A DNA stretch of 64,000 bases from positions 12,837,504 through 12,901,503 of the forward strand of contig OZ038460.1 of assembly GCA_964036195.1 (NCBI GenBank), read 5' to 3'. Positions 3,563 to 57,600 of this stretch are shown one piece after another (the stretch's first letter is position 1; every line of letters starts with the position of its first letter). The translations under genes were made by a program, and so were the position numbers. Below the pieces are notes generated by a model. That model was not told the DNA's origin. It was given only the letters and a program-made list of their open reading frames with translations, and searched no databases. This stretch comes from Sphaerolaimus hirsutus (lineage: Eukaryota; Nematoda; Chromadorea; Monhysterida; Sphaerolaimidae).

Positions 3563-3773
3563 ATTAAAATCTCTGTGGAGAAAATATAGGTAAATATAAA
3601 AAAGTTACATGATTTTTTATATTTTCTGATATTTGCTGCTTGGACCTGCATAATGCTAATGCTGCACAGTGTGTGTTTCACGTTTATAGGGGGCCTCGTT
3701 TATAGGACATTTATCATTTATCATCAATTTTTTTGATGATTGATTCACAAAAATACAAATGAGTGGGCTGGTG

Positions 3774-4467: not shown

Positions 4468-4937
4468 AGGCCCCCAGACCACTTGATTTTCTTAACTGTG
4501 AGATCCTATGCGCATGCAATCTATCGCTATGTACGCTAAGCCGTCTCTCTCTCTCTGCGAAATCTTACTATTTATAATACCTACCTAATTATTATATTAA
4601 TACTCTTGATGTTGATTAAGTTCCTCTAGATTGCAGCGTGAATAACCCCCCATTCAGACGGGCAAAACATACGCAAAAGCATTAAGTCAGAAACGATGTA
4701 CTTCGAATCGGCAAAAAATAGAATGGGGCACGCGGAATTTTTCAGTGATAGGTGCTCATTATATAGTGTATGAACAAAAAATATGAAAAAATGAGTTGCT
4801 GATATCTATATCATTATCGGGATTTATATTATCGGGTTGGATTTCTTCAACTCCCTGGAAGCTCGCTCTGTTCGGAAAGTAGTGGTACAGCCCCTTTGTT
4901 CACTGTACTAAAATACTAGAGTAATAGAATACCTTTA

Positions 4938-21160: not shown

Positions 21161-24100
21161 TCACGGTCGTGCCAAAAACTTGCCAAATCCTTTTTTCTTT
21201 TTCGACTTTACCAGATGAATGTTCGCGTTAGCTCCTGCAAAGAAAGATCGCTTGTGGACACACTTGTGAAAGTCCATCTCGTTCACAGTTTCGTTAAATT
21301 TGGAAGCTGTTTGGTCACTAAATATTTACGGTGTCCAAATGGCGTCCACTTCCCCAGACTTTTTGGTTGGAAAAATTATTGTGAAATTATTGTATTTTTT
21401 CGTTAGAATCTTAGCGAAAATCGGTTTATTTTAGTAAAATATGACACATTATGTAAATGGATGTTCGTCAATGCAATCGTACAGTAGCTGCTTACATTGC
21501 TCACACTTAACGATGGCCAAAAAAGATTCGAAAATTCGAAAACATTTTCGAATTTTCGAATTTTTTCGGAATTTTCGAATTTTTATTTCACCCCTAGAAA
21601 AAACACTTAAAAATCGATTTATTTTTCAAAAAATTCGAAAATTCGAAAATTCGAAAATTCGAAAATAGTTTTCGAATTTTTCAGGCAGTTCAAGGCAACA
21701 AAACGCATTCTTAAGTTCAACGTGCTAAATAAAGCGACAATTGATATGCGGCGCGTATGAAAAAGCGAAACGTAACAAAAAAACATTGAAATGACATCCG
21801 CGGCGGAAGAGGCGGACTTCGACACATCCGTTTTATACCGTATTTCCTTGAAATATCCTCCCCCCTCAAAATACCCCCCTCAATATTTGCCCTATGAATT
21901 TATAACCCCCCCCCCCCCTCCCCTCGAAATACCGCCCCCAAATTTGGTGTATAGAGAACGTTTGTGCGGTTTGTTATCTGGGAAACACGTTAAAAACAAT
22001 GACTGTGTTGCGTTAGAACAGGGTTTGTACCGTCTACGTACTTATAAAAGTCTATAGAGTCTTATAAATGGCGGTTTTTGTTGCATTTTTTACATCTGTG
22101 TTACTTACAAAAAACTATTTAGCATTGGGATTTCTAAAAATTTCTGGCAAAGTAATAGACCCCCAGGGGGGGGGGGTTAATTCAAGGAAATACGGTATTT
22201 GATGTCAATATTTTATTTCATGCCAATTTTCTATTTGATGCCAATATTTTATTTGACACCGATTTTCAATTGTTGTTTTTATTGCCTTTGCTGCGTTGGT
22301 GAATTATGTGCCAATGTGTGAATTAAATGAAGAAGTTGGACACTGGTCCGTATAACTCCTTCCACCATTTTTAATGCTAAATTATGGTAAAAATAAGGTT
22401 ATAAAAACTGAGGAGAATGTGAAAACAGTCCAAATAATGTGTTTTAAGCTTCAGATTCAATATTTTTCCAAAAAAATTCTAAAATTATTTGAAAAAATTC
22501 GAAAACTGGCCAAAAAAATTCGAAAATTGCTAAAAAAGATTCGAAAATTCGAAAATTCGAAAATTAAATTCGAAATTCGAAAATTTATTTGGGGAAAAAT
22601 TCGAAAATTCGAAAATTAATTTTAGAAAAAACACTTAAAAATTTAAATACTTTTTTCTCGGGGGTTTGCCATCGTTACTCACACTGCACAGAATTTGGAC
22701 TCTGCTCTGCTTCTTGGCGGGTACTTCTTATGTTATTCAAGATAAAAGGTAGGCACCATGCGTTTTTGCCTATAGGTACACGTTTGCATGCTGATGGCGC
22801 AGAATTATTTCTCACAAAGCATTCAGATACGATGATGTTCAACTTAGGCCACTACACCGGACAGACGTACCGGGTCTGTTGATATGAACATATCTCCCGG
22901 TCTCGGGCGTTTCCTTGGCCGGTGGATAAGCTCCTTGATGGGCTGGAGTGCGACCGCGCGGTTCCGTTTGTGGGGCTTTCCGCTGTGAGTAAGCGATGTC
23001 AACTGTCAGTTGTCGATTTCACCGTTTAGAATATTTATGTTAAAACTGAAGTAGGTAAGTTGCCTCAATAATACTGCTCTGATGCAAATTCGGTACTAAT
23101 AATTTTATGGCATCCGATTATCCGAAGTATAAATATCAATGAAGGCATTGAAATAATTTTGCTTGCTTGCGCTTGCTAATTTGAAACATAAATAGGTATA
23201 CTCAGCGGACATGATACTCTGCCCTCGCACTCATTTATGTCTCACGTTGGAAACGTGCCAAATGATGATAAAGCATGTGATTTTTGTGTAAAATATGAAG
23301 AAAATCATTGTTGTGAATGAGTTAACGTATAACAGCGATCACCTTTTTCCACTTATGAAAATCGCATTTGTAAAAAGTCGTTGGCACGCTTACAGCGGGA
23401 ACCACGCGTGCAGGGTGTAAAGTAACTGGACTATAGGTATTTATTGTTGCCCCCTCCAAAACTGAATCAGCGACACACCGTAGGTGGTGGTGCCGGCCCC
23501 GGTTTTATGTTCTCGTAGGGCGTGTCGCCTATGTCGCTGGGGCCCTGCTTAGGTCTGGGGGCAGTCCCAGATCCTGTAAAATGCCCTGTACAATGTCAAC
23601 GTTTGTTATTTTACCGGGCATTTTACATGACTTTTGACACTTCGCATGACATTTTACAGGGCATTTTACATGGTCTGGGACTGGCACCTGTCGCTGATAT
23701 TTTCGTATGGCTCATCAGCTACCACTGGTTGCGTTTGATCCGGTTTTGAGCCTAGTTTGCGCTCCGCTTTTCGCTTGCGCGCCGCCGCTTTCATCGCGCC
23801 CGAGATGTCCTCGTATGATTCGCTGGACGATTCTGCATCGATGCATGTTCAGTTCATGTAAACGAGTTATACTATATTTACACAGTTCGTGATCGATAAA
23901 GGGGGTTCTCCGTGCTGGTAGTATTTCTGGCATGCGTATATCCTCGAATAAGACCCCTCCTGAATAACTCCTCCTGTTGGCCGAGTGGGGAAAAATAACT
24001 CCCACTTGAATAACTCCCTCTACTTGAGTAGCTCCCCCCCCCCTTTGTGATAGGTGGAAAAGATGCTGTTCAATTAAAAAACAATCAATGTAGTCAGACA

Positions 24101-27100
24101 GACCAAATAAAGCTATGCCTGGGCTGTGAAACGAAAAATACAAAATAAATTAGTTACGGCTCACCTGACGCCACACTGGGTGAGGCGTCATTAGCCTATG
24201 GCAGCGACAGCAGATACATAATGCAATTGTGATAAAAATAACACCCCCTCGAATAACTCCTCCTCCTTTAATAACCCCCCTTCAAAAGCTCTGACGAAAA
24301 TTTACTCCCCTGGGCTCTTACTCGAGGATATGCGGTATTGCCAAGTGCGTTTTAGTAATCGTCTGTTCACCGTGCGGTGCATCATCAACTCACTTTCGGT
24401 GTTGCAAGCGGTGTGCGGCGTGACGGCCATGGGCGACACCATTGGCAACCCGACGACGGGCTGCGCGTCGCGCTGCGAGTGCGTGTCCTTGTCGTCCTCG
24501 TCGTTACCTTCGTCGCTGCGTCCTTTCGAGGTGCCTGGCACACTGCCAGACTTTTTGGTTGGTTTCGGTAGCGCCGCGTCGACGGCCGCCTCTTTGGTTG
24601 GTTTCGGTAGCGCCGTGTCGACGGCCGCCTCTTTGGTTGCTGCTTTAGGTGGTGCCGCCGGTGCGGGCTTGTCCTTCGTTGGCGCCGCCGGTGCGGGCTT
24701 CCCTTTGGTTGTAGCTTTGACTGGTGCGGCCGGCTCTGGCTTCTCTTTGAATGGTGGCTTAGCTGGCGCTGCCACTATAGGCGCGTCTTTTGCTGGTGGA
24801 TTAGCTGGCGCTGCCACCATAGGCGCGTCTTTTGCCGGTGCCTTGACTGGTGTACCCAGCTCGGGCTTCTCTTTTAAAGGTGGCTTGGGTGCCGCCGCCG
24901 CACCACCCGCAAATGGCGCCTGTTGGTATGCCCATTGCCAGAACTTTGCGACTGCCCCTTCGGTTTGTGGTTGTACCGGCTGCGCTGGTTGCTGTGCTAC
25001 TGGTTGAGCGTGTGCCGCAGTGGGGTCGTTGGCCCGTCGCCAGAATATTACTGGAGATGCGTCGCCAGCTGCATGCAAAATTACGTGCGATGGAGTAAAC
25101 TGATTAAGTCATGTTTACTGATGGAATTTTAGGAGCCTGGCGCTAAGTTACGCCTCGCCAGCTATTATTGTCGCCATCTTGACGCCGTGAGTGTCAATTT
25201 CTTGTCGCATTTCCATCCCTACATAACAACAAAGACTCGAAATTAGCCAACGGGTTTGAGCTCGCGGCTCAGCATTCTTCTGCTTTCCAGCGGCGGGCGG
25301 TTTTTGCGGCGTCGCGGTCACAGTATCTTTGTTGCCAGCTGCCTTAATTCTGTAAGCGAGCGGCATATCGGCCTGGATCAAATCTGTTTCCTCGATGGCC
25401 GTCTGGTTCTCGGCTGACGTCGATCGCTGCTTGAGTTTAGCCTCAGTCGCTTTCCCCTTTCGCTGCCTCGTCCTGGGGCCAGTTCCGCAAGTGGAGTAGC
25501 GAAAGCGCAAACGGCAAAAGCGAAGTGAAATGGCAAGTAAATTGGCAAAAGCGAAGTAAAATGCAAATTCAAGTGAAAGAAAATGCGCCATTTTACTTTA
25601 CTTCGCTTCTGCCAATTTACTTGCCATTTCACTTCACTTTTGCCGCGTGCGCTTTCACTTCTTCACTTGCGGAACTGGCACCTGGTCACGGTGGCTTCCA
25701 CTGTGTGCGCTTCCACGCTGCCCGACGAGTCGCTGTCGTGTTTCTCACCCTTGTCGTCTGCCGCACCGCCTGCATTTGCGTCGTGCTGCATGTTGATTGG
25801 AAAGGAGATGGTCGGACAAAAGTACCAACTATACCTGCGTTGTCTGCATCCTTTTTCGGGGATCTAGCTGTTTTCTTTTCTGCTGTTTCATCAGGTGGCT
25901 GAAATGTCACAATTATCATCAAAATTTATGTTTGTGGATTGGTGATTACCTAAGAGCCAAGAACGTAAGAACCTACCACAGCTGGAACTGAAGCGCCTTC
26001 AACAGCCACAGCTCGATGCTCCCCTGCTGTCTGAAAACGTGCCAAACAATCAGTACCTAAAATACAACAAAGATGGTTATGCAAAGACTCCGGCATTTAT
26101 GGAAATTTTTTTTACGAATAGCAGTCATCTAATTGCTAGCCTCCTATGAAGTGTCTTGCAAAATGTCATAAATACAAACTTGTCAAATGTCATTTGCAAA
26201 ATCACAAAAGTTCAGTAATAAAATGTTTTCTTGTATTTTGATTGAGATTTTTCATGACTTTACACTTTACAGGGTTGACACTTTCATGACTACAATCTGT
26301 GGACTCATTTCCAGAGCATCATTAAAAGCATTTTGACAGTGCCTGGTTGCGTCCCGCGCCCCGTAAAATGCCATGTCAATTGTCAAACGCCATGCGAAGT
26401 GTCAACCAAAAAGAGGATTTTATAACTGAACTTTTGACATTGTAAATGCATGGAACTTGACACGTAAATTTACACTTAGGTATAGCATAGTGCGCACTGC
26501 GCCCTGCTATGCCCGACCTGTTTGAAACTGGTCTGCGTTGACCTGTCCACTTTGGCGGCGGGTTCACGCTGGGCAGAGGCGACGGCGGGAGGGATCGGCG
26601 CGATGGCAGTCTTGACATTCGCCACGCTCGTGTGCAACGTGACCAATGTGTCGTCAGTTGATTGCTGCGGTTTGTGGCGATAGTTCAATCGTGCTCATGT
26701 GGACAGAAAGTTGCCACTCAACCAGAGTTGGTTCGAGTCAAAGTAGTTTTAGTAGTTAACGAGGGGACACGGTCATGACACGCACATGGGCGTTGATTTT
26801 TGAACCCAACATTTTTTACCGAAAGCCATACCTACTTGATAAATATATGAGCTCTAAGAAATTCAATAACTCGAAATCCAATATGTAGGTACTTTGAATC
26901 CCCTCGACCATTGACATTTCCCTTATTATTTTGTGACTTGCCAAGAAAATGCCCACCAGGTGCCAATCCCAGACCCTGTAAAATTCCCTGTAAAATATCA
27001 AATGCAATGCAAAGTGTCAAAAGTACTGGAAAATGCCCTGCAAAATGGCAACTCGGTTTGACATTTGACAGCATTTGACATTCTACACGGCTTTTTACAG

Positions 27101-28016
27101 GGTCTGGGAGTGCCCCCAGGAACGCACCGTTCTCTGCAGGCTGTCGTCGGGACGTTTTATCTTGGCGCTTTTTGGTTTCGCCGCGGGCACAGGTGCCGGC
27201 GGCGGGTCGGCTGGCATTGGCAACTCTTTCGGCTGCTGCGACTTTCGCTTCGCACTGCATCTGGAATTCGAGCTACTTGGTGTATACTCAACGGACTGTA
27301 AAGTATGTGCAGAATCCTACCATAATTTAATGAATAAAATCTTGCGATAAATTTCGTAATCAATTGTTCCATGGTGTAGGTATTGAGTATTTAGTTGTTT
27401 GAAATTTCGATAATAATAAAAACACAAAAATACAGTACAATAATAAAAACAAAATATCATGATTAAAAACTGTATAATTTTTGCTTCATTATTCATGGTT
27501 CCATACTATTTAAGTGTGATATCCGCCGAGTATACATATACGCCTAATACTATTTGAAGCAATGATAGTGTGGTAGTAACCAGGGCGAAATTAAAGAGGC
27601 CAAAGCAATTTCCTTATCATTCATCGAATATCCTCGAATAAGTCCCCAGGAGAGATATTTTTGTCCAGGGTCAGCTAACATTGAGAGTTATTCCACGGGG
27701 GGAATTTTTCGAGGGGGGGGGCTTAATCGAAGAAATACGATATGTGCCAAGCTACGCACATGAAGCAAACGCATGAGGTCAGTATAGCTGTTGCGATCAT
27801 CATCAATGAAGCACCGAGATGAAGATCCACTGTCACTTGAGTTATCATTTTCTGGTACTCGTTGCCGCTGCAGCCGAGCAGCGGCGATGTAGTGGGAATT
27901 TTTTTTTTCTTAAATCTGTAAGATGTGTCAGTGCGGCCTCCGCGGCCATCGCGGCAGTTTATGAGCAGTTGGTACGTTGTTTTTGATTGTGCTGGTTTCT
28001 TAATAATTGAAGTCAC
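21161..28016 (-). CDS. Unrecognised disordered Lys/Pro/Ala-rich protein, 12 exons
   Basis: Exons from 5' to 3' on the minus strand: 28016-27760, 27295-27128, 26664-26518, 26030-25977, 25898-25835, 25769-25682, 25472-25252, 25068-24394, 23832-23688, 23554-23479, 22982-22871, 21234-21161. Every junction is GT-AG and phase-consistent. Exon 1 needs one extra base in its poly-A run (see separate entry); with it the protein is 693 residues. I do not recognise a family. Visible parts: a basic N-terminus, an acidic Ser-rich segment (PENDNSSDSGSSS), a repetitive PPxKEKPE / APxKPPAKDAP region at about 365-500, and two Tyr motifs (SYEDISGA near 565, TPYENIKPG near 620) that could be phosphotyrosine docking sites. 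The tail is basic (VKSKKKKGFGKFLARP). A scaffold or cytoskeletal adaptor role is only a guess. The last exon (23 residues) is the least certain. Two of its introns are introner-like elements. Confidence 0.65.
21508..22677. mobile_element. hAT-like element with amplified TTCGAAAA motif
   Basis: Tips TAACGATGGCC and GCCATCGTTA are flanked by a perfect 8-bp duplication CTCACACT (21500-21507 and 22678-22685). The outer ~200 bp on each side are tandem AAAATTCGAAAATTCG. No transposase. A GR-family element is nested inside. The whole lies in the last intron of the disordered-protein gene. Confidence 0.9.
21836..22197. mobile_element. GR-family element nested in the hAT element
   Basis: Bounded by ACCGTATTTCCTTGAAAT and CAAGGAAATACGGTA, with C-runs at left and a G-run at right. 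Its position inside 21508-22677 shows that it inserted later. Confidence 0.75.
23196..23438. mobile_element. GTTGGAAGCGTGCC-subfamily element
   Basis: GTATACTCAGCGGACATG to GGACTATAGG, with the GTTGGAAACGTGCC / GGCACGCTTACAGC inverted core. It lies in the intron between exons 10 and 11 of the disordered-protein gene. Confidence 0.65.
23555..23687 (-). mobile_element. Introner-like hairpin that is an entire intron (family A)
   Basis: On the minus strand the exon ends GACAG, the intron starts GTGCCAGTCCCAGACC and ends TCTGGGACTGCCCCCAG, and the next exon begins ACCTAAG. The 133-bp element is a hairpin built from GTAAAATGCCCTGTAAAATG and its inverse. Donor and acceptor are its two tips. Phase 2. 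Splicing joins YENISD to RPKQGPSD in an open frame. Confidence 0.85.
23934..24337. mobile_element. GR-family element in an intron
   Basis: Left end GCGTATATCCTCGAATAAG, right end CTCGAGGATATGCGGTA, C-run blocks inside. It lies between exons 8 and 9 of the disordered-protein gene. Confidence 0.7.
24394..25068 (-). CDS. Large repeat-bearing exon of the disordered-protein gene
   Basis: The longest exon (residues about 334-559). After the segment FWRRANDPTAAHAQPV come Gln/Pro repeats, FWQWAYQQAPF, then degenerate copies of AKPPFKEKPEPAAPVK and KEAAVDTALPKPT, and an acidic run DEGNDEDDKDTHS. The donor is chosen at GTGAGTTG (just after 24394), because the next exon joins in phase and the frame beyond it runs into a GR-family repeat before stopping. 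Confidence 0.7.
25473..25681 (-). mobile_element. Introner-like hairpin that is an entire intron (family B)
   Basis: On the minus strand the exon ends GTGACCAG, the intron starts GTGCCAGTTCCGCAAGTG and ends CTTGCGGAACTGGCCCCAG, and the next exon begins GACGAGGC. The 209-bp element folds on itself nearly throughout, with stems of GCAAAAGCGAAGTGAAATGG type. Its stem is unrelated to family A but the tips are alike. Phase 2, frame preserved (EATVT-R-TRQRKGKA). Confidence 0.85.
26960..27119 (+). repeat. Family A hairpin, complete GT...AG copy antisense to its host gene
   Basis: On the plus strand it reads CCAG, then GTGCCAATCCCAGACCCTGT through to GGTCTGGGAGTGCCCCCAG. It has all the features of the intronic copies, but it lies antisense within the intron between exons 2 and 3 of the minus-strand gene, so its tips cannot serve as that gene's splice sites. 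About 26150-26470, in the next intron, holds two more decayed copies. Confidence 0.75.
27282..27534. mobile_element. TATACTCGGCGG-family element whose tip forms an exon edge
   Basis: Ends GTATACTCAACGGACTGTAA and ATCCGCCGAGTATAC. On the minus strand the tip reads TTTACAG then TCCGTTGAGTATAC; the AG is the acceptor of exon 2 of the disordered-protein gene and the last 14 bases are coding (Ser-Val-Glu-Tyr-Thr). Confidence 0.7.
27626..27743. mobile_element. GR-family fragment
   Basis: ATATCCTCGAATAAGTCCCC at left and TCGAAGAAATACGATAT at right with G-runs between. A short or deleted copy in intron 1 of the disordered-protein gene. Confidence 0.6.
27760..28016 (-). CDS. First exon of the disordered-protein gene, with apparent 1-base homopolymer frameshift
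   Basis: The frame from the ATG at 28014-28016 (MTSIIKKPAQSKTT) and the coding-looking frame ending TDLMRLLH at the 27759 donor differ by one base. They meet in a run of ten A (plus-strand T, 27899-27908). One more A in the run would make a single 86-codon exon that joins exon 2 in phase 0. This is probably a sequencing or assembly indel. Alternatives are an allele-specific break or a short intron that I cannot place. Confidence 0.6.
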
Positions 28017-31300: not shown

Positions 31301-34300
31301 TTTCACACACAAATTGACATTGGTGGTTGTTTTCATTGGTTTTGTTGCATTTTTAGTATCAAAACATCCATTTCTATGTGCTACCATGGGTGAATAAGCC
31401 GACATATGTTGCTGTAATATATAATATTGAGGTAATGTGCTTCCATGTACCTCCACAGTGTGTAACTTCACTCCCAAAGTAACAACCTCCTTTTATAACC
31501 TTGTTTGATCACCATTTCGTGCCAAACTTTACCTGAAGTCTCGAACATTCGACTATAAGGCGATATACGAACGATATGTCGACGAAAAATGGATATTTTT
31601 GACACAAATCACCACTTATAATGCTATCCCATGGCTCCACAGCCATTATATGGTCATATTTAACATCACAGAGTATTGCCAGTGTCTGATATACCTATAT
31701 ATGTTGACACTAGGTCATATCTGGGAGCTTTTAAAAAAAAACGTTTTAAAAAAAAACAACGTTTTTTTTTTAAAAAAAACATCGAGTTAAAAAAAAACGT
31801 TTTTTTTCCAACCCTAGGTGTGGTTGCTTTCATTGGTTTTTCGGGCATTTTTAGTGTAAGAGCTTCCATTTGTTCATGCTATTGTGTAAAATAATAAGCC
31901 GTGGTAATATGTTATTGTAGTATAAAATATGCAGCCAATGTGCTCCCACATTTTTATACAGTGAAATATCACCGTCAATGTATTAGCCTCCTCTTTGGAC
32001 CTTATGTAAGCACTTTTCCAACCCACTTGATGGAAACTTCTCTTCACATTCCATAATGGAAAAACGATATTTTTGACAGAAATCACTACCTATAATTCTA
32101 TCCCATGGCTCCACGGCTATATTTCACATCACACAGTATATATTTATTTTATTTATTTCAGTACTGACACTGATATACCGGTATATGTTGACTCATTACA
32201 AATATTTGGGATAATAAAAAAACGTAATTTTTAACAATCATGGTCGTCAATTTTTCCACCCCAACAGGCGCGCGCGATTGCCCTGCGCGCCATCGAGAAG
32301 CTGAACAGGCAAATGGGCGTGTCGGCCGCGCCGCCGCCCGACGACCCCGACGAGCCCACCGACGAGCCCACCTGGGAGCACGTGAAGCGCGCCGAGGAGA
32401 TGAAGAAAACTGAGGATGATGCCAAGGCTGCTACTGGTGTGTCTGGGCTACGGTTATTCTCTCGTTAAATTTGGTTGCGGTTGAGACTAGCGTTTAGTAC
32501 GATCCCGAATTCCGAGATTTTGCGGTTCTGATTCCGAAACTCCAATCCCGATCCCGTATGTTTGAAAAGCTGACCCTGATCCCGAAAATTTGCTAATTCC
32601 AACCCGATCCTGATAAAATTTCCATAATCCCCATCCTGGAAAAATTTGTCAAATCACGTTTTTGCACTGGGAAATGTGAATACCTCCCAGTGTGCATACT
32701 GCATTCTCTTCTCCAGTCTTCTACTTATCTCGCATCCAAGTATATTTTTAAACCCTTTTTGTGAATAAAATTTGTGTTTTGTGTGAAAAAAACCCTGAAT
32801 ACTCGAACTGTCCAAACTCCTGGTCCCGATCTCTTACTCCCGAACCTGATCCCTTAAAGTTGATTGAGCAAGTTTAATCTACAGATCACCTATTAACGCA
32901 ACCCCCAGATCACCCCCAGAATTTGAACCCTCAAATCGTCTATCCTCACGTGCAGAACGTGTGCGCGGTCGGCACCACCTTGGCGACTTTATCCCAGCCG
33001 AAAAGCAGAAAAAGTTTGTGAAAAAGCTGCTGTCTGAGCGCGGCGTGGCCGTCGACGAGCAGGACGATGCGGTCGACGAGTCCATGTACGCCCAGAACAA
33101 ACTCAGCGAGGACAACAAAGGTGCGTTTTGGTCTTGGTTTCAGTGGCATGGGTTTACCACCTTTCAGGGGTCTCCAAGATTTTGGCCCTTGCGGGGGCTG
33201 GATAGATAGCAAATCGCTCCTCCGGAGGGATAGATAGCTGAAATTTTTTCTGGGGGGCACAATATATAGGCTTTTTCAAGGTTAAGAAGGCAGAATGGGG
33301 GAAAAAATCGCTAATAATCAGTTAAAAGTAGCCAAAAGTAGGTTCAAAATGGCTCAAAATAGGTATATAACCATGCATATAGCTGGAAAGCATGATTTTG
33401 AAGGTGAACAACTATAAAACGGTGCGAAAATTAGTGATTTTGAGCGAAAATTGGGGCAAAATTTCTCAAAAACCACTCCAGATAGATAGATAGCTGAGCG
33501 ATTTGGGAGGGGGGGGGTCTTTGGGGGTAGTAGCCAAAAATTTTGCCTCGGGATAGATAGATAGATAGCTGAGCGGCCTCCGGGATAGATAGATAGCTGG
33601 CCGATTTGGGGGGGGGGCAGCCCCCCCCCCTAGGAGACCCCTGCCACCTTTCAAGTTAGAGGAAACATTCATATCAAAGTTCTGGCACAATGCTGTAAAA
33701 TGCATTAGATTTCAGTGATGTTATGAGGCACGAATAGCAGGTTTTGATTTGAAAGAAGTTTCCACCGTGTGATTTAAAAAAATCCTAATTTTAAATATCG
33801 ATTGAAAAATTAAGTGTCATCCCAATAAACACTTCTGAATCAGGCGATTAAGCTTTTTCCAACGCAAAGCCGTAGCTGTTAACACTTAAATTAGCCTCCT
33901 CTGTGAGCAAATGTACACAACTACATAACTCTTCCACTTGCAGGTTTCCAAATGCTGCAAAAGTTGGGCTGGAACGCGGGCGCCGGTCTGGGCGCCCAGG
34001 GCCAGGGCATCACCGCGCCCGTGCCCGCAGGCCGATCTGACGGCGCGCCGCAAACCAGCGGTTTGGGATCCTCTAGGCATGACGAGATCACTGAGGAGGA
34101 TGACCTGTATGCTGCGTACAGGAAGAGAATGATGGTCGCGTACAGGCACAGGCCCAATCCTTTGGTTGGTTTGTGTGTTTGATTCAACATGTTGTGATTG
34201 CCGTAATCCCTCGACATACCCCAGGGGCCAGATTTACTACTCCCTACAGATTTGTAGGGCAGGGCGTACGCCCGACAGATTTTTTAAAGTTTAGCCGCAT

Positions 34301-36427
34301 CGACGCACATGCACCGAGAGCAAGGCGGTTCGTAAAATATACGAAACCATCCCTTAAGGTTGCCGATATTGCAATATGACGTATATCACTTCGATTTTTG
34401 CCCGGAAATAACGATTTCGTCATTTCTTGGCCGTCTGCCAATTCGTTTTTTATTTTATTTTGTCGGGCGGGTTACTCGCATAGGTCACGCTTTTGTGTAG
34501 TCAGGTGGTCACTTTTTTAGTGTTCACTGTCTGCAACCGAAACCATGAGGGCAGCGACAAGAAAGAAATGCATGCACGAGCGTACAAAAGCGCGACTTAT
34601 GCGAGTAACCCGCCCGACAAAATAAAATAAAAAACGAATTGGCAGACGGCCAAGATAAGACGAAATCGTGATCTCCGGGCCAAAATCAGAGCGATATACG
34701 TCATTTTGCAATATCGGCAACCTTAAGGAATAGTTTCGTGTATTTTATGACCCGCCTTGATCTCGGTGCATGTGCGTCGATACGGCTGAACTTTAAAAAA
34801 TCTATCGGGCGTACGCCCTACCCTACAAACATGTAGGGAGTATTAAATCTGGCCCCAGGTCTTTTCGAGCTGAGGAAAATTACCCCCCCCCTCGAAATAC
34901 CCCTGTCTGGAATAAGGTACATCATGTACGCAATGTAAATTCATCATGTATTGATTGCTGCCAATATGCATCGCAGCTACACGTAGACTAGTTTGTGTAG
35001 CCATCTAGGTTGATATATCTAAATCAAGGACGTAGCCAGGGGGGGGGCGGGGGGGGGGGCGGCCGCCCCCCCCCCCCCTTCCCCGGCCGGACCAAAAAAT
35101 GTGCCAGAAATGGCACTTCCAGAAGACGATTTTGTCACTGTTTGAAAAAATTTTGCGCGCAAGCGCGCATTTTCCCTTCGCACGCAACAGATATTTTCAG
35201 CTGACCCGTCTGAGCCTCAAAGCCAGTTAAAAACACTAAATTTTTGTCCATGTCGCCGTATATGCTTGTAAGATACAGACATATATAGCTGTTTTGGCGC
35301 CAATGCCAATGCCAGTGGCGCCATGGCGTGGCGCCTACGAATGGCGCCAGCGCCATGGCGTCATTCCCTTACCACATGGGCAAAATTTTAGGGGGCCCCC
35401 CCCGCTCGCCGGCCTCCGTATACAATCCGCCCCCCCGCTCAAAAATCCTGGCTACGTCCCTGATCTAAATGAAGGGTGTGCTTCTAAAAGTATCGATCTA
35501 CAAATTTTTCCAATTTGAGTTAGGACCATTTTTGGGGTCCCCATAAAAATGCGCTTCAAAAAAGAGTATAATATGTGGGGGAGTGCGAAATTCAATTTTG
35601 AGACATGGTGGGTCGAAAAATGCAAAAAAAATCGCAAAATACAGTTTCGGAAATTTTAAAAGTACCGATCTACAAGCTTTTTCAGCTTTTGTATCTTTAA
35701 AAGTGCCGATCTACACACATTTTTCAGAATTGTACTTCTAAAGGTACCGATCTGCACTTTATTTTTTGTGCTTCTAAAAGTACCGATGTCAGATCGGCAG
35801 CATCAGCGGCAAAAACTCAATTTGTACTTTTTTACTATGGGTAAAAGTACCGGTCTACATCTAGCTGATTTTGTGCTGTTAAAGGTACTGATCCTCATGT
35901 GCTTCCCAAATTGTACCATTAAAAGTACTGATATACAATGGAGCCAATTCATAAAATTTTATATAGCTAGTTACCCATATGTCACCCAAAGACTATACCA
36001 TGCATATCGATAACCAACAATATACCCCAAATACCCATACTCAAAATACCCATACCCAATACTCATGTGTGGGTATTGCATACTTCAAACATTCAATCGC
36101 GATTATCTCAAAATCGATTTTTTGTAGATCGGTACTTTTAGAAGCACACCCTTCAAATATATCCTATTTTATCACATTTATTAGCAGTTTTCCGTATGGA
36201 AAAGCCCATCTTCACTACGATCCGTTCCGAAAATTTCTGGGAAAAAATAGCTCTTCTCGAATAAGCCCTCCCCCTAGAAATACCCCCTCAAACTTCCCAC
36301 TCCGATAAAATCCCCCCTCCCCGCTAGGTGTATTTCGAGGAAATACGGTAAATGGTTTTGATTTGCTTAAGGCTTCTATGATAAACGCAATTTTACTCAG
36401 AACAACCCGCGGCGGCAATACTATTGA
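28362..36427 (+). CDS. SUGP1: SUGP1-like G-patch splicing factor
   Basis: Exons: 28362-28413, 28484-28547, 28624-28840, about 28881-29038, 29099-29245, 29291-29424, 30767-31053, 32268-32436, 32956-33120, 33944-34164, 36401-36427; about 546 residues. Family marks: NDGSFMDQF near the N-terminus (human has NDGSFLQQF), TWEHVKRAEEMKKT, HHLGDFIPAEKQKKFVKKL, a G-patch (FQMLQKLGWNAGAGLGAQGQ), DDLYAAYRKRMMVAYRHRPNPL and the C-terminus NNPRRQYY. SUGP1 works in the early spliceosome with SF3B1; its G-patch recruits the helicase DHX15. Oddly, I find neither of the two SURP modules of the human protein. The ATG at 28362 has an in-frame stop 9 bases upstream, so either it is the start or an acceptor lies between. 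The junction of exons 3 and 4 is weak, and exon 7 seems to use a GC donor (CAG then GCGTGT). An alternative donor for exon 1 is at 28450. Confidence 0.8.
29551..30700. mobile_element. hAT-like element with amplified GCGCTTTTTTAAAAA motif
   Basis: Tips TAGGGATGGCC and ATCCATCCCTA. The outer parts are made of AAAAAAGCGC-type repeats, and the interior resembles that of 31134-31816. A clean target duplication is not visible. It contains a nested element at 30124-30564 and lies in intron 6 of the SUGP1-like gene. Confidence 0.75.
30124..30564. mobile_element. hAT-like element, CAGTGGCGTAGCCAGG family, nested
   Basis: Tips CAGTGGCGTAGCCAGG and CCTGGCTACGCCACTG with a perfect 8-bp duplication CTTAGAAC (30116-30123 and 30565-30572). 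It contains G and C runs, a GGCGCCATTCGTAGGCGCC palindrome and a GCGCGCAAGCGCGC-type core. Confidence 0.9.
31134..31816. mobile_element. hAT-like element with amplified AAAAAAACGTTTTTTT motif
   Basis: Tips TAGGGTTGGCC and CCAACCCTA, perfect 8-bp duplication GGTGTGGT (31126-31133 and 31817-31824). Sub-ends are alternating A-runs and T-runs around ACGT. It lies in intron 7 of the SUGP1-like gene. Confidence 0.9.
31825..32226. repeat. Diverged copy of the same hAT interior
   Basis: Follows the same order of short matches as 31320-31740 (GTTTTCATTGG, TTTTTAGTGT, CCCATGGCTCCAC, ATATGTTGAC) but lacks clear tips, so it is an older, partly eroded copy. Confidence 0.55.
32495..32862. repeat. Element with repeated TCCCGATCCCGAA motif
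   Basis: Both flanks are built from CCCGATCCCGAA-like units in opposite orientation around an AT-rich core. It lies in intron 8 of the SUGP1-like gene. A related block is at 40545-40655. Confidence 0.6.
33165..33643. mobile_element. hAT-like element, CAGGGGTCTCC family
   Basis: Tips CAGGGGTCTCC and GGAGACCCCTG, perfect 8-bp duplication CCACCTTT (33157-33164 and 33644-33651). Contains GATAGATAGATAGCTG repeats. Relatives lie within 42163-42531 and about 56050-56294. It sits in intron 9 of the SUGP1-like gene. Confidence 0.9.
33944..34164 (+). CDS. SUGP1: G-patch exon of the SUGP1-like gene
   Basis: Acceptor CACTTGCAG, donor GTTGGT. The glycines of the G-patch (LGWNAGAGLGAQGQGI) are all present with normal spacing, followed by the conserved YRKRMMVAYR segment that places this protein with SUGP1 rather than other G-patch proteins. 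Confidence 0.9.
34217..34858. mobile_element. Long palindromic foldback element
   Basis: Nearly the whole 640 bp is two inverted arms of about 290 bp (left GGGCCAGATTTACTACTCC, right GGAGTATTAAATCTGGCCC) around a short centre near 34525. Arms differ by scattered substitutions. No coding frame. It lies in the last intron of the SUGP1-like gene. Confidence 0.8.
35025..35462. mobile_element. hAT-like element, CAAGGACGTAGCCAGG family, copy 1
   Basis: Perfect 8-bp duplication ATCTAAAT (35017-35024 and 35463-35470). Apart from the homopolymer G/C runs it reads identical to the copy at 36725-37174 over about 300 bp, so this family moved recently. Confidence 0.9.
35471..36154. mobile_element. Inverted-repeat element with repeated TAAAAGTACCGATCTAC motif
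   Basis: Ends GAAGGGTGTGCTTCTAAAAG and its exact inverse, flanked by AAAT on both sides. Inside are about eight degenerate copies of CTTCTAAAAGTACCGATCTAC. It inserted at the edge of the hAT copy to its left. Confidence 0.75.
36401..36427 (+). CDS. SUGP1: 27-bp terminal coding exon of the SUGP1-like gene
   Basis: Acceptor TTTTACTCAG, then nine codons reading NNPRRQYY and TGA, the exact family C-terminus. It is separated from the G-patch exon by 2.2 kb made almost only of transposons, and it would be missed by gene finders. Confidence 0.9.
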   Translation, partial: NNPRRQYY

Positions 36428-37907: not shown

Positions 37908-39109
37908 ATGCACCGCGCCGTGGCCGCTGGCCGAGCGGCTGCCGCAGTGCGCAGCTACTGCAGCGGGTCCCTGTCCAGCGTGGGCGTGGCCAGCGTCAAG
38001 TCCGACGGCAAGGTGGCCTTCAAGCCGGTCGCCGGCGCACCCGTTGTCAAGCCAGACCACAATGAGCTGGCGCAGGATGATTTGCGCTTTGATGAGGTCA
38101 CGCATACTGGACAGGTTCGTTTTATAGTTTTTGTGGGTTTGTCTGCTGGCTGAGAATTTCTATTTTCAGGCGTGCGCTTCTCAATGTTTATTACTGCAAA
38201 ATATCGGAAATTCGGTTGAATAGGGAAACTGCATCTACGATAGGCCCCACACATTTCAAAAAAATTTCAGCGTCACTTGTCATTTTTTGTCACACTGAAA
38301 CTTCGGAACAATTTTCAAAAGAACCTTGGCATGAAGTTGATAACTCCATGCTGTGTTCATCAAAAAGTCAATAACTCCACTCTTTTTGTGGAAAGTAAAT
38401 TACAAGTCCATGTGGTACGCCGACTTGAACGGCGCAGGACCAGTGCACAAGTAACAATGTCCGTGCCAATATAGACCTGATGCTTAGGTACAGCCCCCAT
38501 TATTGAGCACTGGGTCTTCATTGGCACTGCAGGGGTTCAGTATGGGGGGTTGGGTTACCTTCTCTCGCAATCGATTTTTTGGAGTTATCGACTTACAAGT
38601 AGATCTTCACTTATCTAACCTTTTCGATCACCAAAATCCCCGCGCAGGCGTGGGACCAGGCCGACCGGCGCCTGGCTCGCTTCACGTACACGCCGAAGCA
38701 GGTGAACCCAAACGTGGCCATGCGGCTGGTGCACGAGATCGCGCCGGTCGAGTCGGCGGCGCGCGTGGTCAGGTGCCAGTCCCAGACACTGTAAACTGCC
38801 CTGTAAAATGTCAAATGTCACGCAAAGTGTCAAAAGTCATGTAAAATGCCCTGCAAAATGGCAACTCGTTTGCCATTTTGCAGGGCATTTTACATGACTT
38901 TTGACACTTTGCGTGACATTTGACATTTTACAGGTCAGTTTACAGTGTCTGGGACTGCCCTCAGCTGCGACGGGGGCGGCGGCGCGCTCGGCCACCCCAA
39001 GGTCTACATCAACCTGGACAAGCCGGGCAATCACGCGTGCGGCTACTGCGGACTCAGGTTCTCCAGGAAGGGAATGCCGCATGATGGTACAGATCATATT
39101 TCTGTGTAG
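37908..39109 (+). CDS. NDUFS6: NDUFS6, mitochondrial complex I 13-kDa zinc subunit
   Basis: Exons 37908-38114, 38648-38772 and 38965-39109 give 158 residues; junctions GT-AG, phases 0 and 2. The first ~25 residues are basic and Ser/Ala-rich without acids, as in a mitochondrial presequence. The motif [17 protein letters not shown] and the closing [18 protein letters not shown] are diagnostic. The zinc ligands are all present: Cys of CDGGGG, His of LGHP, and the two Cys of CGYC. The protein is an accessory subunit of the peripheral arm of NADH:ubiquinone oxidoreductase, needed for late assembly and close to the N-module. The C-terminus after CGLRF reads [15 protein letters not shown], slightly longer than usual. 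Intron 1 carries repeat fragments. Intron 2 is exactly one introner-like hairpin. Confidence 0.97.
38773..38964 (+). mobile_element. Introner-like hairpin that is an entire intron of NDUFS6 (family A)
   Basis: The exon ends GTGGTCAG, the intron starts GTGCCAGTCCCAGACACTGT and ends GTGTCTGGGACTGCCCTCAG, and the next exon starts CTGCGACGG. The 192-bp intron is an almost perfect hairpin with ~85-bp arms and a short loop near 38870. Splicing gives the conserved join VVS-CDGGGG. Phase 2. Confidence 0.92.
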
Positions 39110-39253: not shown

Positions 39254-39385
39254 TATTTAGTGCGATAAAGTATTTGAGGAGGTGATTTATTTGATCGTAG
39301 GAAAGTAATCACTGAATTTCACTGTAAACTTTTGGTGGTTCAAGGCCTGCAATGAATTCATAGAAAATATTTAACTACTTGTCAC

Positions 39386-39590
39386 CTGGGGGCAGTCCCG
39401 CACCGTAAAGTGTGAAGTATAGCGTGCAATATCGTGCAAATTGTTTATGAAGATGAACTTTCGTCATTTTACATGAATTAAAATGAACTTTGATTTTACT
39501 ACTTAACTTTCGTCATTTTGCATGACATTTGACAAATTTGTATGACATTTTACAGGACATTGACACTTTACAGGCTGGGGGTGGACCTCA
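39386..39590 (-). repeat. Family A hairpin, intergenic
   Basis: On the minus strand it begins near GAGGTCCACCCCCAGCC and ends GTGCGGGACTGCCCCCAG. The stem AAATGTCATGCAAAATGACG type is preserved, but the 5' tip is no longer GTGCCAG. Confidence 0.65.
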
Positions 39591-44059: not shown

Positions 44060-44233
44060 GAGTCCCCTGGGGCGGTTCCGCGCTCTGTAAAGTGTAAAGT
44101 CGAGTGTAAAATGTCAATTTAAATAAAAAGAAAAGATTTGATTACTGAACATTTTGCATAAAAATTTACAAATTTGTATTACATTTTTACATGACACTTT
44201 ACTTTTCACTTTATGGGGTGAGGGACTGGCATC
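44060..44233 (-). repeat. Hairpin with mixed family A and B tips
   Basis: On the minus strand it starts GATGCCAGTCCCTCACC (one base from GTGCCAG) and ends GAGCGCGGAACCGCCCCAG. One tip is of family A type and the other of family B type, on a TGTAAAGTGTAAAG stem. Intergenic. Confidence 0.6.
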
Positions 44234-51600: not shown

Positions 51601-54600
51601 CAGTGCGTTCGCGTTGCGATAACCCAGCACTCGGCTCGTGCCGATTCCCAAAGTGGATAAGTGTCAGGCACATGGATAAGTGATGAGTTATCTCAAAAGT
51701 GGCAGTTTAATTCAAGTGATGAGTTAAGTCAAAAGTGGCATTTTAAGTCAAGTGACATGTGAAGTCATTATTACCTGTTAACAAGCAAATATGTAAATCA
51801 AAATACCTGTCACTACTTATGTATAGTCCAGTGACTTGATACTGTTCATGCACAGTGATTCAAGTCTTCATTATGCATGCGACTCCTGCAAATTATAAAA
51901 AATTTAATTGCTGTTCAAATATTTTATGTCAATGTTTTAACAGCAACAATTCTGGTTGAATAGTAGATCACTGAAACCTAGGAACTCGTACATCTGACTC
52001 AACACATTTGAGTTTACCAGAATGACGAGTCTGTCAACTACTGTTGACAGCGACCAGAAACGTTCATTCTGGTAAACTCAAATGTGTTCAAGACAGATTT
52101 ATGAGTTTCCCAAACTTTGATGGAGTACTCAGTAGTGTGTGTGGCATATAATAGTTTATATACTCCAGTGACTTTACACCTGGAAGCGCGCCAACGATAG
52201 TTCACGCATGCGATTTTCACAAAACGATGAAAATTCCATTGCTGTTATAACGTTTTACGTTAACGTATTCACAACAATATTTTTTCTTATTTTAACGGAA
52301 ACCGGATGCTTTAATTATCATTGATGTGAGACATAAATAACTTCGCGTACATAATGTCGTGTCACGAAGTGTGAGAATCACACGCGTGAATTTTGGCACG
52401 CTTCTAACATCAATACATTAAGAATGGGGCATGCACAGCATCAAGTCACCGGTACAAATACATACCTAGTTTCATTACTTTACCTATTACTTTCTCACCA
52501 CATAGAACTTGACATAATACTTATGTTACCTGGTTACTTGTCACTTGTGGAATTGACAACAAGTCGACTATGTGGTTTATTTTATCAGAATGGCAAACTA
52601 TTCTTTACCTACTTCGCATTTTCAAGCCTTATTCTCACACAAAGCATGTGGTGCCAAGTGTAACTAGGTAGGCAATGTAATAATGACATTCTTGATTACA
52701 TTCAACTTTTATGTTTTTTCAAGTCTAGTTCCATCTTATTTTCAAGTTTACTTTGATATTTTATAATACTCACTTATTTTTCGCAAGTCTCCCATGTTTA
52801 CATCATAGCGAATGACCGATTGTTGGAGTGTGGCCCACCAGGGACGTAGCCAGGATTTTTGAGCGGGGGGCGGATTGTATACGGAGCCCGGCGAACGGGG
52901 GGGGGGCGGCGCCCCCACCTTAAAATTTTGCCCCTGTGGTAAAGGAATGGCGCCATGGCGCTGGCGCCATTCGCAGGCGCGACGCCATGGCGCCACTGGC
53001 GTTGGCATTGGCGCCAAAGCAGATGTATATGTCTATCTCACAGGCATATACAGTGACATGGACAGGAATTTAGGTTTTTCACTGGCTTTGAGGCCGTGGA
53101 GACTGGTCAGCCGAAAATCTATTGCGTGACGGAAAAATGTCCGACCCGGGAAGGGGGGGGGGCGGCCGCCCCCCCCCCCCCTGGCTAAGTCGTTGTGGCC
53201 CACTACAAGTTTTGGGAGTCTAAAAAGTGCTCACTTATACCAATTACCGTATTACCTCGAAATATCGAAATTACCCCCATGGGGGTTTATTATTTTGCCA
53301 GCAAAATTTGAGGGGGGGGGGGGTTAATTCGAGGGGGAGGGGTTATTCAAGGTTTTTTTTTATATATTATTTCGTCAGAAATTTTCGTGAAATTCATAGT
53401 AGAGAATACGCTTTTTCACACACAAAAATGGTAAAAAACGCGAGAAAATAGGTTGTATTGGGGCTATAGATGTACATCTGTATAGTCGGCAGACATGATA
53501 CTATACAATGAGTCGCATGATGTCATATCATGCACGCTGTATCCAACCCGTAGAACTCTGTTTTGGTGACTCATGCTTACGCATATACGGAATGAAACTA
53601 TTCAATTGTGCCCACACAATTGAAACCCCCGTCAAAGTGTAGTTGAGTTTTTTGGCATGATGCCATCCAAGCGTCGTCTGGATCTGAATAAATACAAAGC
53701 GGGAACGTTTTCTGAATTCAAAATTTTGAACGTAACAAGTTTTCGTCAAAATGAATCGATAGCGTGTAACTTTTCTAAATATGAATTAGATTAAACGTAG
53801 GTAAACGTATAATCAAAAATTTGCAGCACCTATCGGCACAAAAATCGGAGTAAACGAGTGCGTAAAGAACAGCACATTTTTATTTTCCTTCTTACTATCT
53901 TTATATTTTCTTTTTTACTAAATTCCTTTCTCGTTCGCTCTACAAGAACAAAATATAACTTTCCAATTTTGTAGAATGATATGTCTGTCGACTATACATA
54001 TTGACATATTCACGACCCACTGTGCACCGTTTTTATACCGTATTTAAGATGTAGCGCACTTCACTGTTCAGTAAGATGTTGAATTTCATTGACGCTTAGC
54101 GAAGGGAAACATAAGTGGACCAAACCTGTATAATATCATGTCTGCCGACTATACACAAATGAGCGTATAAGTGTATCTCCAATGCAAATTAGTAGTGATA
54201 AGTACATTATGTACATTGCATACATGATGTACATCATTCTGGAGGGGGGTATTTCGAGGGGGGGGTTATTGTTTCCCCAGCCCATTTTGAGGGGGGGGGG
54301 GTTAATTCGAGGGGGGGGGGGTTAATTCAAGGGGGGATAATTCGAGGTAATACGGTATTAGCGATTTCGTATCTTTCGCCTAGGTTTATCATTCATCGGG
54401 CATGCTGCGGACCTGCGGGCAGGTCCGCAGTGCCGCAACAATGTGAAGAAATTTTTCCCAATCCGAACGCGTGTACGATTCAAAATAAAATTATTGGATG
54501 CACGTCGGGTTCGCTGTTCGCACGGGCGCGCACTGGGCGAGAACGATCGCAAACGCAGAAACGGCACCCACCTGCACCTTGTTCTCTCCGACAGAGAAGC

Positions 54601-57600
54601 ACAGAATGCACACGTCGTCGGTTTTGCGCTCGATGCGCACCACGGTGCTCGAGTCCATCTTGAGGCTGGTGCTCAAGTGCGCGCTGCGGATGAAGTCCTC
54701 CGTGCTGAGGTCTTCGACGCGCTTCGTGTCGCCGCCCGCCAGTTGGATCCACGTGCCGCAGGTGAAGTGCGACGGGTAGTACGGGCCGGCGGCCGACGAC
54801 GACGCCTGGCTGGCCGCCGCGGCCGCAGCCGCCGCCCGCGCCACTGCACAAGGGAGCGTATTTATGCATCGGTGCCAAGACAAACACCACATGGTAAACA
54901 AAAGTTCGCTAAATTCTACTACAAAAACCCCGCTTGATATATCGAAATTACATTTCTAACTTTCAGTGAACCAAACTGTGCATCCGGAAATAATAAAATA
55001 AAAATGTCGTCCCCGGCAGCAGACGCAGATAATGATACCCCCTCCAAAATTTTCAACAAATTCGAACCCTTTTAAATTTTTCCGAGGACAAAAATAAAAA
55101 AGTCGAAACACAAAAACACTTTCAACACCAATCCTAACACAATGGCGTCAACTCATATTTCGGCTTCACGTGTCGCTGAGCGATCTCCAAATGCACATGC
55201 GGCATTGTCAAAAATACACTGCGACACCTGAAGCCGAAATCTGAGCTAACACAAATGTGTCAACGACTGTGCGGGCCGCCAATGTTCAGTGGCAGTTCTC
55301 ACGAGCGACCGAGCAACTCACATGCTGAAGCAGGCACGAGCGGCCGGATGCCCATGGCGGGGGCGGTCAACGAGCTGACCGACGTGTGCCGGCTGTGCGC
55401 CAGCTGGTGGCGGGCCAGCGCTGATGGCGACGAGTGCGTGGACGCGTGGTGCGACGTGCTCGGCCCCTCTGTGGACGGCGACCGGCGCAGGCCTAGGTTT
55501 GCCGCTGCAGCTGCTGCTGCAGCCGCGGCCAAGGGCCCGCTGCCGCCGACTCCCGTACGGCCTGCGTGACGCGGTTTGAAGAAATGGTAACCTTTCAGCG
55601 GAAGATAACATCACGTCAATCAAGGATGTCTTGCTGATTTTTTTCATGTTTTTTTTTATATGTGTATAATGGGTGGTGAAGAAACACGTAAATTGCCCAA
55701 TATACATAAGTGACGAGTAATTTCTAAAATTCTACAAGACCAAATACTGCATTTGCTGGAAATTGTATTAAGTTCAATGTACCTATTTATGTAAAGTCAT
55801 ATTTTAAAACACTTGAGAAACGGTGGGACAAAACATAACCTTAAAAATAATATATGCTTTTGCAGCTCAACAGGCAAACTTGAGGTTCAAGGGGAAAATG
55901 CCAATTATGCTTTGAAAATGCTTTGAAGTGACTGACCTCTCCTCAGAGTCTTTGTCCATTATTGCAACTTCATATAATAAAAGTGGTAATTTTGGCCATG
56001 CAAATGATGAACTTGACATTGAAAAACAAGCTTACCATATTTTTGATGAGCGAAAACTGAAACTTATATTACTGGTGTGAAAATGAGTGATTTTGAGCAA
56101 AAATTTGGTCAAAATTTTACAAAAGTTGCTCCAGATAGCTAAATAGCTTGGCGGTTGCGGGGAGGGGTAGTGACCACAATTTTTGCCTCAAGGATAGATA
56201 CCTAGATAGCTGGGTGGCCTCTGGGATAGACAGATAGCTAAGCGATTTTTTTTTGGGGGGGGGGGTACCCCTCCAACCCCCATTGGAGATCCCTGTGGAG
56301 ATAACCATCGTTCCTAAATGTTCCAAAGGTGTTATGTAACACCAAAAAGGTGTAAGTTATAACAATTCGGAAAATATGGAAAAAGTGCGGGACCAATTTT
56401 ATTGTAGATACAGTTTCCGTGCGTAACTCAATTTTCTGAATTTTGGAGTTGTCCACTTTCAGAAGGGACTGTACTCAAAGCGACATCAACTCTGAAAAAA
56501 TTTACATCCCTTATTTGGGCTTCTAAAAAGTGATGTAAATATTAGAGCTTGGTATCAACATCGCTAGGTTCACTGAAATCTCCTCGATGAATATTTATTA
56601 CATTTGATGACGTAGGGGCCAATTACGCAATTGGACGAGTGACAAGCAAAATGGTAAGTGAAATTATAGCGGTAAGTCAAGTGAAAGTAAACACATAAGT
56701 GACAAGTGGTTTTGTTGCATTCGCAGGGGATGGTCCGGCCGTAAAGTAAACCCGGCCGTAAAGTAGATGGTGCTACTTTAGGCCGGGCATCATTACGGCA
56801 GAGTTGTTTAAAGTACTGAACTTTTTTCAAAGTAAACGTAAACGTCAAGTATTTTATTTTTAGTCACACCTGAATACAGAAAACGTAAAGTAAAATTTTT
56901 TTCTACTTTTACGCTGTGTAAAAAGTGAGTAAATGTAAATATCTGTAAATACTCGTTTTCTGTACTCGCGTACTTTCAAAAAGTACGCGAGTAACTGAGT
57001 ACCGGTATTTTTTCGGGAGGAAACGTAAACGTATTTACGCAGCACTCGAGTATAAGTATTTATCGAGTAAACGTAAATACGTCTGTACAACTATGCGCTA
57101 CGGCCGGATTTACTTTACGGCCGGGTTTACTTTACGGCCGAGTTCTCGCCGCATTCGCAGCCGTCGCGGTGCAATTTTTCACCTGTTTTCATGCAGCGGC
57201 GTGGCGGTAATGCAGTAATGAATTACTGAGTAAGTAATGAAGCGGTACGTGTCTGAATTAGGCGACGCGACACTGCAATACCGCTGCGGCGCATGTTCCC
57301 GGGTTCGTATAAAAGTGGTGACGGTTTTTTGAGGCGTTCAGTCGCACTGAGCCCTCTTTTTGTTGTTCGGATTTTATTTGCTCCATTTCATCCATGAACA
57401 CCCATTTGCATCGTCGTCACGAATGTGGATTGATTCATTTTCCGACAAAGTGTCGCATGGCGACGGTGCACAGAAAGGAAATAACATTTAAGACAAACGC
57501 ACCGCTTTTCATTAACTCGGTACCTCACGTACGGCCAGTGTCCACATAAGAGTACACTGTTAGTGCTCTGTCTAAAGTGGTCTAGTGGCACTGGGGGTAG

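Follow-up and report, generated by a model that had tools for sequence, protein, structure and literature searches.

The window, a 64,000-nucleotide stretch of the Sphaerolaimus hirsutus genome, contains an NDUFS6 gene with three exons on the plus strand. Its second intron coincides with a hairpin element, A1, plus one copy of a 3-bp target duplication. The parts are as follows, in window coordinates.

37908-39109, plus strand: NDUFS6, whole gene
37908-38114, plus strand: NDUFS6 exon 1, with ATG and an open frame to THTGQ, then the GTTCG donor
38115-38647, plus strand: NDUFS6 intron 1, an ordinary intron, not a hairpin element
38648-38772, plus strand: NDUFS6 exon 2, phase 2, with the 5' CAG copy as its 3' end
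38770-38772, plus strand: 5' CAG of the target duplication, retained in the exon
38773-38964, plus strand: NDUFS6 intron 2 (putative introner), made of element A1 and the 3' target copy
38777-38864, plus strand: left hairpin arm of element A1
38870-38957, plus strand: right hairpin arm of element A1
38962-38964, plus strand: 3' CAG of the target duplication, serving as the 3' splice site
38965-39109, plus strand: NDUFS6 exon 3, including the stop codon

As read from the sequence, intron 2 is 192 nt long with GT at its start and AG at its end. A1 makes a single hairpin with 88-nt arms, 87 of the 88 positions paired and a 5-nt loop. The DNA fold of the A1 stretch with 20-nt flanks has a z of -24.3, and the RNA fold of the intron reaches -158.8 kcal/mol, where shuffled sequences average -45.5 (z -27.8), with none of 200 shuffles as good in either case. 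The sequence-only reading had described a near-perfect 192-bp hairpin beginning with GT and ending with AG. It was right about the hairpin and its ends but had put both dinucleotides within the stem, while they lie outside it, at the stem base, where tails of 4 and 7 nt are left unpaired. Exon 2 and intron 2 both terminate in CAG, which is the target duplication.

Exact removal of the 192 nt gives the NDUFS6 zf-CHCC protein (PF10276, E 7.8e-20), and the other two joined frames are unrelated, which bears out the claim that taking out exactly the element rebuilds the conserved frame. No gap falls at the junction in the four alignments shown to solved NDUFS6 chains. Across the genome, NDUFS6 matches solely at this interrupted locus. 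The insertion is probably recent, judged from the arm identity of 87/88 and assuming a perfect hairpin at insertion.

The top matches in the NDUFS6 search are metagenome proteins. The best among the named ones is from Romanomermis culicivorax (71% identity, 65% of the query), together with other nematodes. The tail after the zinc finger, HDGTDHISV, is like those of Romanomermis, Trichinella and Trichuris and unlike those of the arthropods listed, which are short and rich in His. The arthropod host supposed earlier is replaced by a nematode one, from both the named matches and the C-terminal tail, which by themselves suggest a probable dorylaim. A tree of 35 rows gave no supported placement of the species.

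The window carries further elements, mostly in and around a second gene, called gene M here.

23467-27260, minus strand: gene M, modelled with nine exons in a single open frame (537 aa) that has no located start codon
25473-25681, minus strand: element B1 (second family), exactly intron 5 of gene M as modelled
23555-23687, minus strand: element A3, exactly intron 8 of gene M as modelled
26960-27119, plus strand: element A2, CAG/CAG, antisense within modelled intron 1 of gene M
12845-13013, plus strand: degenerate copy of family A, in DNA that looks non-coding
39385-39590, minus strand: degenerate family A copy downstream of NDUFS6

With B1 and A3 taken out, gene M has its nine exons in one open frame with GT..AG at all eight borders. 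A protein search found no homologue of it among 7,994 scored candidates, so its reading is drawn entirely from the open frame and the splice borders. Three of the ten introns modelled across NDUFS6 and gene M are elements, and A1, B1 and A3 all interrupt codons at phase 2. The intact window copies (n=4) are 133-209 nt long and their arms pair, three of them having been folded; all four are flanked by CAG on both sides. Because B1 has the tips common to family A and a different interior, we distinguish two families, A and B. Other copies had been claimed for the window, and they are there: 26960-27119, 23555-23687 and the degenerate ones, with 25473-25681 sharing the tips around another interior.

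The window was scanned for tip pairs, and 116 inverted-repeat pairs were checked for GT..AG ends and open joined flanks; the two further loci that came out of this as sensible introns are 25473-25681 and 23555-23687. Two joined frames that came out open in the hairpin scan were set aside, 26960-27119 on the plus strand as gene M runs antisense there, and 35744-36144 as its flanks look non-coding by eye. Weak tip pairs near 3774-4465, 44067-44232 and elsewhere are not readable as introns. Degenerate family B-like hairpins at 3770-4470 and 12420-12670 have tips without the GTGCC of the intron-forming copies.

The window also holds features apart from the elements. A G-patch exon (PF01585, E 1.9e-10), in a gene that we take to be SUGP1 by its looks, is followed closely by a 276-bp inverted repeat downstream (34221-34496 and 34584-34859, 91% complementary). 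An ataxin-1 type AXH domain is encoded at 54494-54955 on the minus strand (PF08517, E 1e-13); on this strand, at higher coordinates, lie open frames that contain polyglutamine. A Ras-association domain exon lies at 18781-19165 (PF00788, E 2.4e-10).

The genome searched is an assembly of 348,482,957 bases in 762 contigs. Of the 1,933 first-look candidates from the element search, 40 were scored. The family A 5' tip, as a 25-base pattern with two free positions, occurs exactly at 1,926 places and its reversed pattern at none, and the strict family B pattern occurs at 21. The 5' tip is GTGCCA and the 3' tip is TGCCCC; written longer and with ambiguity letters, the tips are GTGCCAGTYCC and GGRACTGSCCC. 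Outside its own genome, the element had no match in the viral contigs, searched with the family A and family B tips, or in the genome contigs.

For the flanks, we read the 39 best-scoring copies, 30 of the 41 with both tips exact, all 21 strict family B copies and the first 42 short stretches listed of the 1,926. Among these stretches, 29 with at most two mismatches in the 3' tip were kept and 13 with no 3' tip found were excluded. Removal of the near-duplicate rows L019, L051, L084 and L121 left a table of 115 copies. The pairs L017/L019, L050/L051, L083/L084 and L119/L121 share a near-identical element or flanks at two assembly places, and are either segmental duplications or leftover haplotypes.

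The flanking 3-mers are identical in 78 of the 115 copies and unequal in 37, some through decay or the chosen register. The triplets on the 5' and 3' sides are CAG/CAG in 47 copies, CTG/CTG in 29, CTG/CAG in nine, CAG/CTG in none, CCG/CCG and CAT/CAT in one each, and others in 28. The CAG or CTG identity is associated between the two sides of the element (Fisher p 3.6e-15, 115 copies). In the 78 matched copies, the preceding base is C in 50 and the following base is G in 52. Since the triplets match and are flanked by C and G, the sequences indicate a CCWGG-like insertion site at which three bases, in most cases CWG, become duplicated. The single CCG/CCG copy (L054, G000:C1:20580204-20580358) is in coding-like sequence with no Pfam domain, and its intron would be GT..CG.

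The existence of CTG copies identifies the CAG after the window element as duplicated target rather than as part of the element. This corrects the idea that both splice sites lie in the inverted tips: the GT is in the 5' tip, and the AG is that of the duplicated target CAG. From the window alone, where CAG stands on both sides of all four intact copies, one could suppose that the element owns GT and CAG and inserts only after CAG with no duplication. However, after a 5' CTG, the 3' triplet is CTG in 29 copies and CAG in nine, and after a 5' CAG it is never CTG, which leaves that supposition next to no credit. With the target duplicated, the element has the features of a MITE, being short, bounded by inverted terminal repeats, devoid of coding capacity, fixed in its 3-bp duplication and high in copy number.

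Whether exonic copies coincide with introns was assessed by a Pfam scan of joined sense frames, chosen by eye, one per locus for 40 of the 88 unique long-flank loci. A domain above the cut-off spans the junction in eight of these 40 hand-picked frames, listed below.

L010: HCO3_cotransp
L013: HlyIII
L016: Na_Ca_ex, of which just five residues lie 5' of the junction
L023: Sec23_helical (G000:C3, near 21316261-21316446)
L025: adh_short
L027: CTLH
L030: GATase_5
L043: Peptidase_M13_N

A domain below the cut-off spans it in three more frames (L039, L041 and L044), and at L075 a solved SLC6 transporter aligns across the junction (E 3.7e-5). The structure match of L043 is weak (E 0.042). No domain lies over the junction at any score in 28 of the 40 sense frames. 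We take L036 to be GPCR-like and L037 to be GBF1-like by their motifs, both being without a Pfam hit, and a search with the GBF1-like sequence, wrong in its first residue, had no match. L039 (G000:C3:23760846-23761035) has GC instead of GT in its 5' tip and lies in a possible ANF-receptor exon (below the Pfam cut-off), and may be a GC..AG introner. If left in, the element puts two to five stops in frame in all 11 cases counted, two of which have a sub-cut-off domain only.

Coding scores were also taken around the elements. A score of at least 5 on both flanks was obtained in sense at 24 of 88 loci and in antisense at 16 of 88, versus four of 350 strand tests 450 nt away, and joins 1 nt too long or short reached it in 35 of 176 tests; since antisense and off-by-one joins also score, and the score is too G+C-dependent to separate strands or test exactness, these counts speak for enrichment in coding sequence and for neither strand nor exactness. 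The exactness of removal rests on the conserved proteins.

These copies might be taken as ordinary MITEs within older introns, matching the splice sites by coincidence. A2 does lie within an intron, the degenerate window copies are outside recognised exons, and the coding score is at least 8 in sense at only six of the 29 unique loci found by the tip pattern alone. Against such coincidence, the three window cases fit both splice sites to the base and their exons join in frame, one duplication copy stands on the exon side and the other at the intron end, and eight domains cross junctions. We hold a coincidental match to be extremely improbable. Whole introns of similar sequence, with the similarity stopping at the splice borders as in introners, are found at NDUFS6, at introns 5 and 8 of gene M and in the eight frames.

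The direction of insertion should matter because a donor arises only when the GT tip is the one nearer the 5' end of the gene. All eight domain-supported frames are in that orientation, with 40 sense and 10 antisense frames scanned, an indication, short of a count over all copies, that the exonic copies are direction-dependent. Nine of the 10 antisense joined frames are free of domains. In the tenth, L069, a trypsin-like match at residues 8-50 passes the junction at 45 by five residues; we read it as an exon ending near the element, and it may possibly be an antisense exonic copy.

The direction bears also on where the copies would be removed. If they were eliminated from the DNA, as a programmed event in some tissues, and not from the RNA, exact removal leaving one target copy would produce the same sequence picture. 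Elimination would suit the CTG copies, which lack an AG acceptor, and L069, if antisense. Excision from DNA should be direction-blind, however, and the one direction of the eight supported frames, along with the domainless antisense frames, speaks against it. DNA elimination is thus very unlikely in our judgement and removal from the RNA as an intron is preferred.

The CTG class makes the 3' splice site a question of its own. Four CTG/CTG copies, L023, L025, L043 and L075, lie within conserved coding exons of SEC24, SDR, M13 peptidase and SLC6 genes, respectively, and exact removal restores the protein in each. The joined SEC24 frame, where ATIL meets ACYR, aligns ungapped to Sec24C (3eh2) over 111 residues. 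The joined SDR frame, where RQL meets AVNHVGHFLL, has protochlorophyllide reductase as its best solved match. In the genome, the SEC24C-like fragment matches only as the two exons of the interrupted locus.

Exact removal of a CTG/CTG copy predicts a GT..TG intron rather than a GT..AG one. GT..AG ends are present in the three element introns of the window and in those CAG/CAG and CTG/CAG copies that have support, whereas the CTG/CTG ones would have GT..TG if exactly removed. At seven CTG/CTG loci, the in-frame stop-free GT..AG pairs near the ends were listed, with donors taken from 30 nt outside to 70 nt inside and acceptors between 90 nt inside and 30 nt outside; none of them yields the exact protein, and all add or remove residues. 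TG acceptors are rare alternatives in other animals.

The mixed copies are one-sided, with nine CTG/CAG versus no CAG/CTG (p 0.004). The supported CTG/CAG cases L010 and L016, and L013 when read one base further on, end in AG. In the simplest reading, the 5' copy would stay CTG as a leucine codon, and the intron copy would have changed to CAG, selected for a better acceptor.

The arm identities are 0.876, 0.943, 0.913 and 0.896 in the four supported CTG/CTG copies and 0.920 (L027), 0.966 (L030), 0.898 (L041) and 0.920 (L044) in CAG/CAG copies with a spanning domain, L041 and L044 being below the cut-off; as a measure of age they presuppose a hairpin that was perfect when inserted. Being comparable, they do not make the CTG/CTG copies look younger. 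In the CTG/CTG genes, either the spliceosome accepts TG, or splicing is inexact, or the genes are broken.

Gene breakage can be put more widely, in that exonic copies in general would just break genes, being heterozygous or recent, and stay in the RNA. The near-identical and probably young arms in NDUFS6 would accord with this. However, NDUFS6 and the SEC24C-like gene each match only as an interrupted copy, several conserved genes are affected with frames open on both sides, and the supported CTG/CTG arms of 0.876 to 0.943 come with frames still open, which counts as age only under the same assumption of an initially perfect hairpin. We consider general gene breakage quite unlikely.

The CTG insertions may instead be working GT..TG introns, a tentative reading whose chance we put slightly below even. 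The direction in which the element meets the target centre, which is not palindromic, would set a regular or irregular 3' end, TG would be tolerated, perhaps through the hairpin, and a later T-to-A change would give GT..AG. Behind this reading are the four restored CTG/CTG cases, the solely interrupted SEC24, the lack of an exact GT..AG alternative and the nine to zero ratio. It had been claimed that the hairpin is the intron and was splicable at once upon insertion. Two more exact window cases, the 78 duplications in 115 copies and the eight frames of 40 uphold this, with a correction for CTG targets. Since many targets are CTG, some of them in conserved exons, splicing at once would need a TG acceptor there.

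Taken together, the element is very likely an introner made by a MITE-like DNA transposon and is predicted to be removed from RNA as an intron. This is based on how the element is built, on its target duplications, on the named cases in which exact removal restores the protein, and on how many tip matches there are. The short element with long inverted arms leaves no room for a gene and would be moved by a transposase presumably encoded elsewhere. Insertion at a CCWGG-like site would duplicate its middle three bases, mostly CAG or CTG. The 5' tip GTGCCA would supply the donor GT and the 3' tip TGCCCC a short pyrimidine run.

At a CAG target on the coding strand, the 5' copy would complete an exon end of CAG followed by GT, and the 3' copy would act as the acceptor CAG. 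As the CAG copies form both borders, removal of the element with one target copy would bring the original codons back. The hairpin may bring the intron ends together in the RNA. At a CTG target, insertion would give a TG-ended intron, tolerated or poorly spliced until mutated to AG.

Spread through RNA, by reverse splicing of excised introns and not by DNA transposition, would be the other route to such copies. Some known introners, such as the ascomycete ones, have neither TIRs nor TSDs and are so interpreted in passages of PMC9860276. The present copies have inverted tips and 3-bp duplications that are also CTG and, once each, CCG and CAT. Moreover, A2 is antisense to gene M, so that DNA insertion fits better than reverse splicing. 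We regard the RNA route as highly improbable and keep to DNA transposition.

How new introns arise has long been asked, and animals rarely have introners. A nematode with roughly 2,000 copies, many of them exonic, adds a lineage in which the gain of introns, the choice of target and splicing can be traced from one copy to the next. Because the CAG and CTG classes differ at one acceptor base, RNA reads from one species could tell if new introns need AG and if selection repairs TG. The GT..TG introns, if true, would be a natural genome-wide test of the 3'-end needs of new introns.

The introners of Micromonas and Aureococcus, as described by Huff et al. in 2016, are reportedly MITE-like DNA transposons that have short TIRs and target duplications and form whole introns. 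One of their splice sites is said to come from the element and the other from the duplicated target. The present elements are alike in the short TIR element, the duplication and the splice sites split between element and target. They differ in their animal (nematode) host, the long near-perfect hairpin, the CWG duplication at CCWGG-like sites and the CTG class without AG.

Introners with TIRs, TSDs and one TSD-derived splice site are thus already described, as passages of PMC9860276 also tell. That 2022 survey places introners in only two groups among its animals and land plants, which account for 835 of the 3,325 genomes. A study of 104 nematodes names introners, in the portion available, only as intron sources known elsewhere (PMC9169325). 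By title, no report of nematode introners was found in the literature, the 2025 introner survey (Gozashti et al., PNAS) being outside the scope.

The Chrysochromulina sp. introners (Gozashti et al. 2022, PMC9860276) have 4-bp duplications with no TIR evidence in the excerpted text, whereas the present ones have 3-bp duplications and long TIRs. The hairpin introners of Amoebophrya share with them the hairpin inverted repeats and some non-canonical ends, according to parts of PMC7789003. Their direct repeats of 3-5 nt across the exon borders can be likened to the duplications here (PMC7789003, same parts). In those parts, however, the Amoebophrya splice sites vary widely and family-specific inverted repeats could not be detected (PMC7789003), whereas the present elements have fixed tips and TG as their one frequent irregular end.

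Non-canonical introns are also known from Fritillaria borealis, in which less than 10% of introns are GT/AG, as stated in the available part of PMC13326754. Here, unlike there, the ordinary introns modelled for both genes of the window follow GT/AG, the one departure being the 3' dinucleotide in the CTG class.
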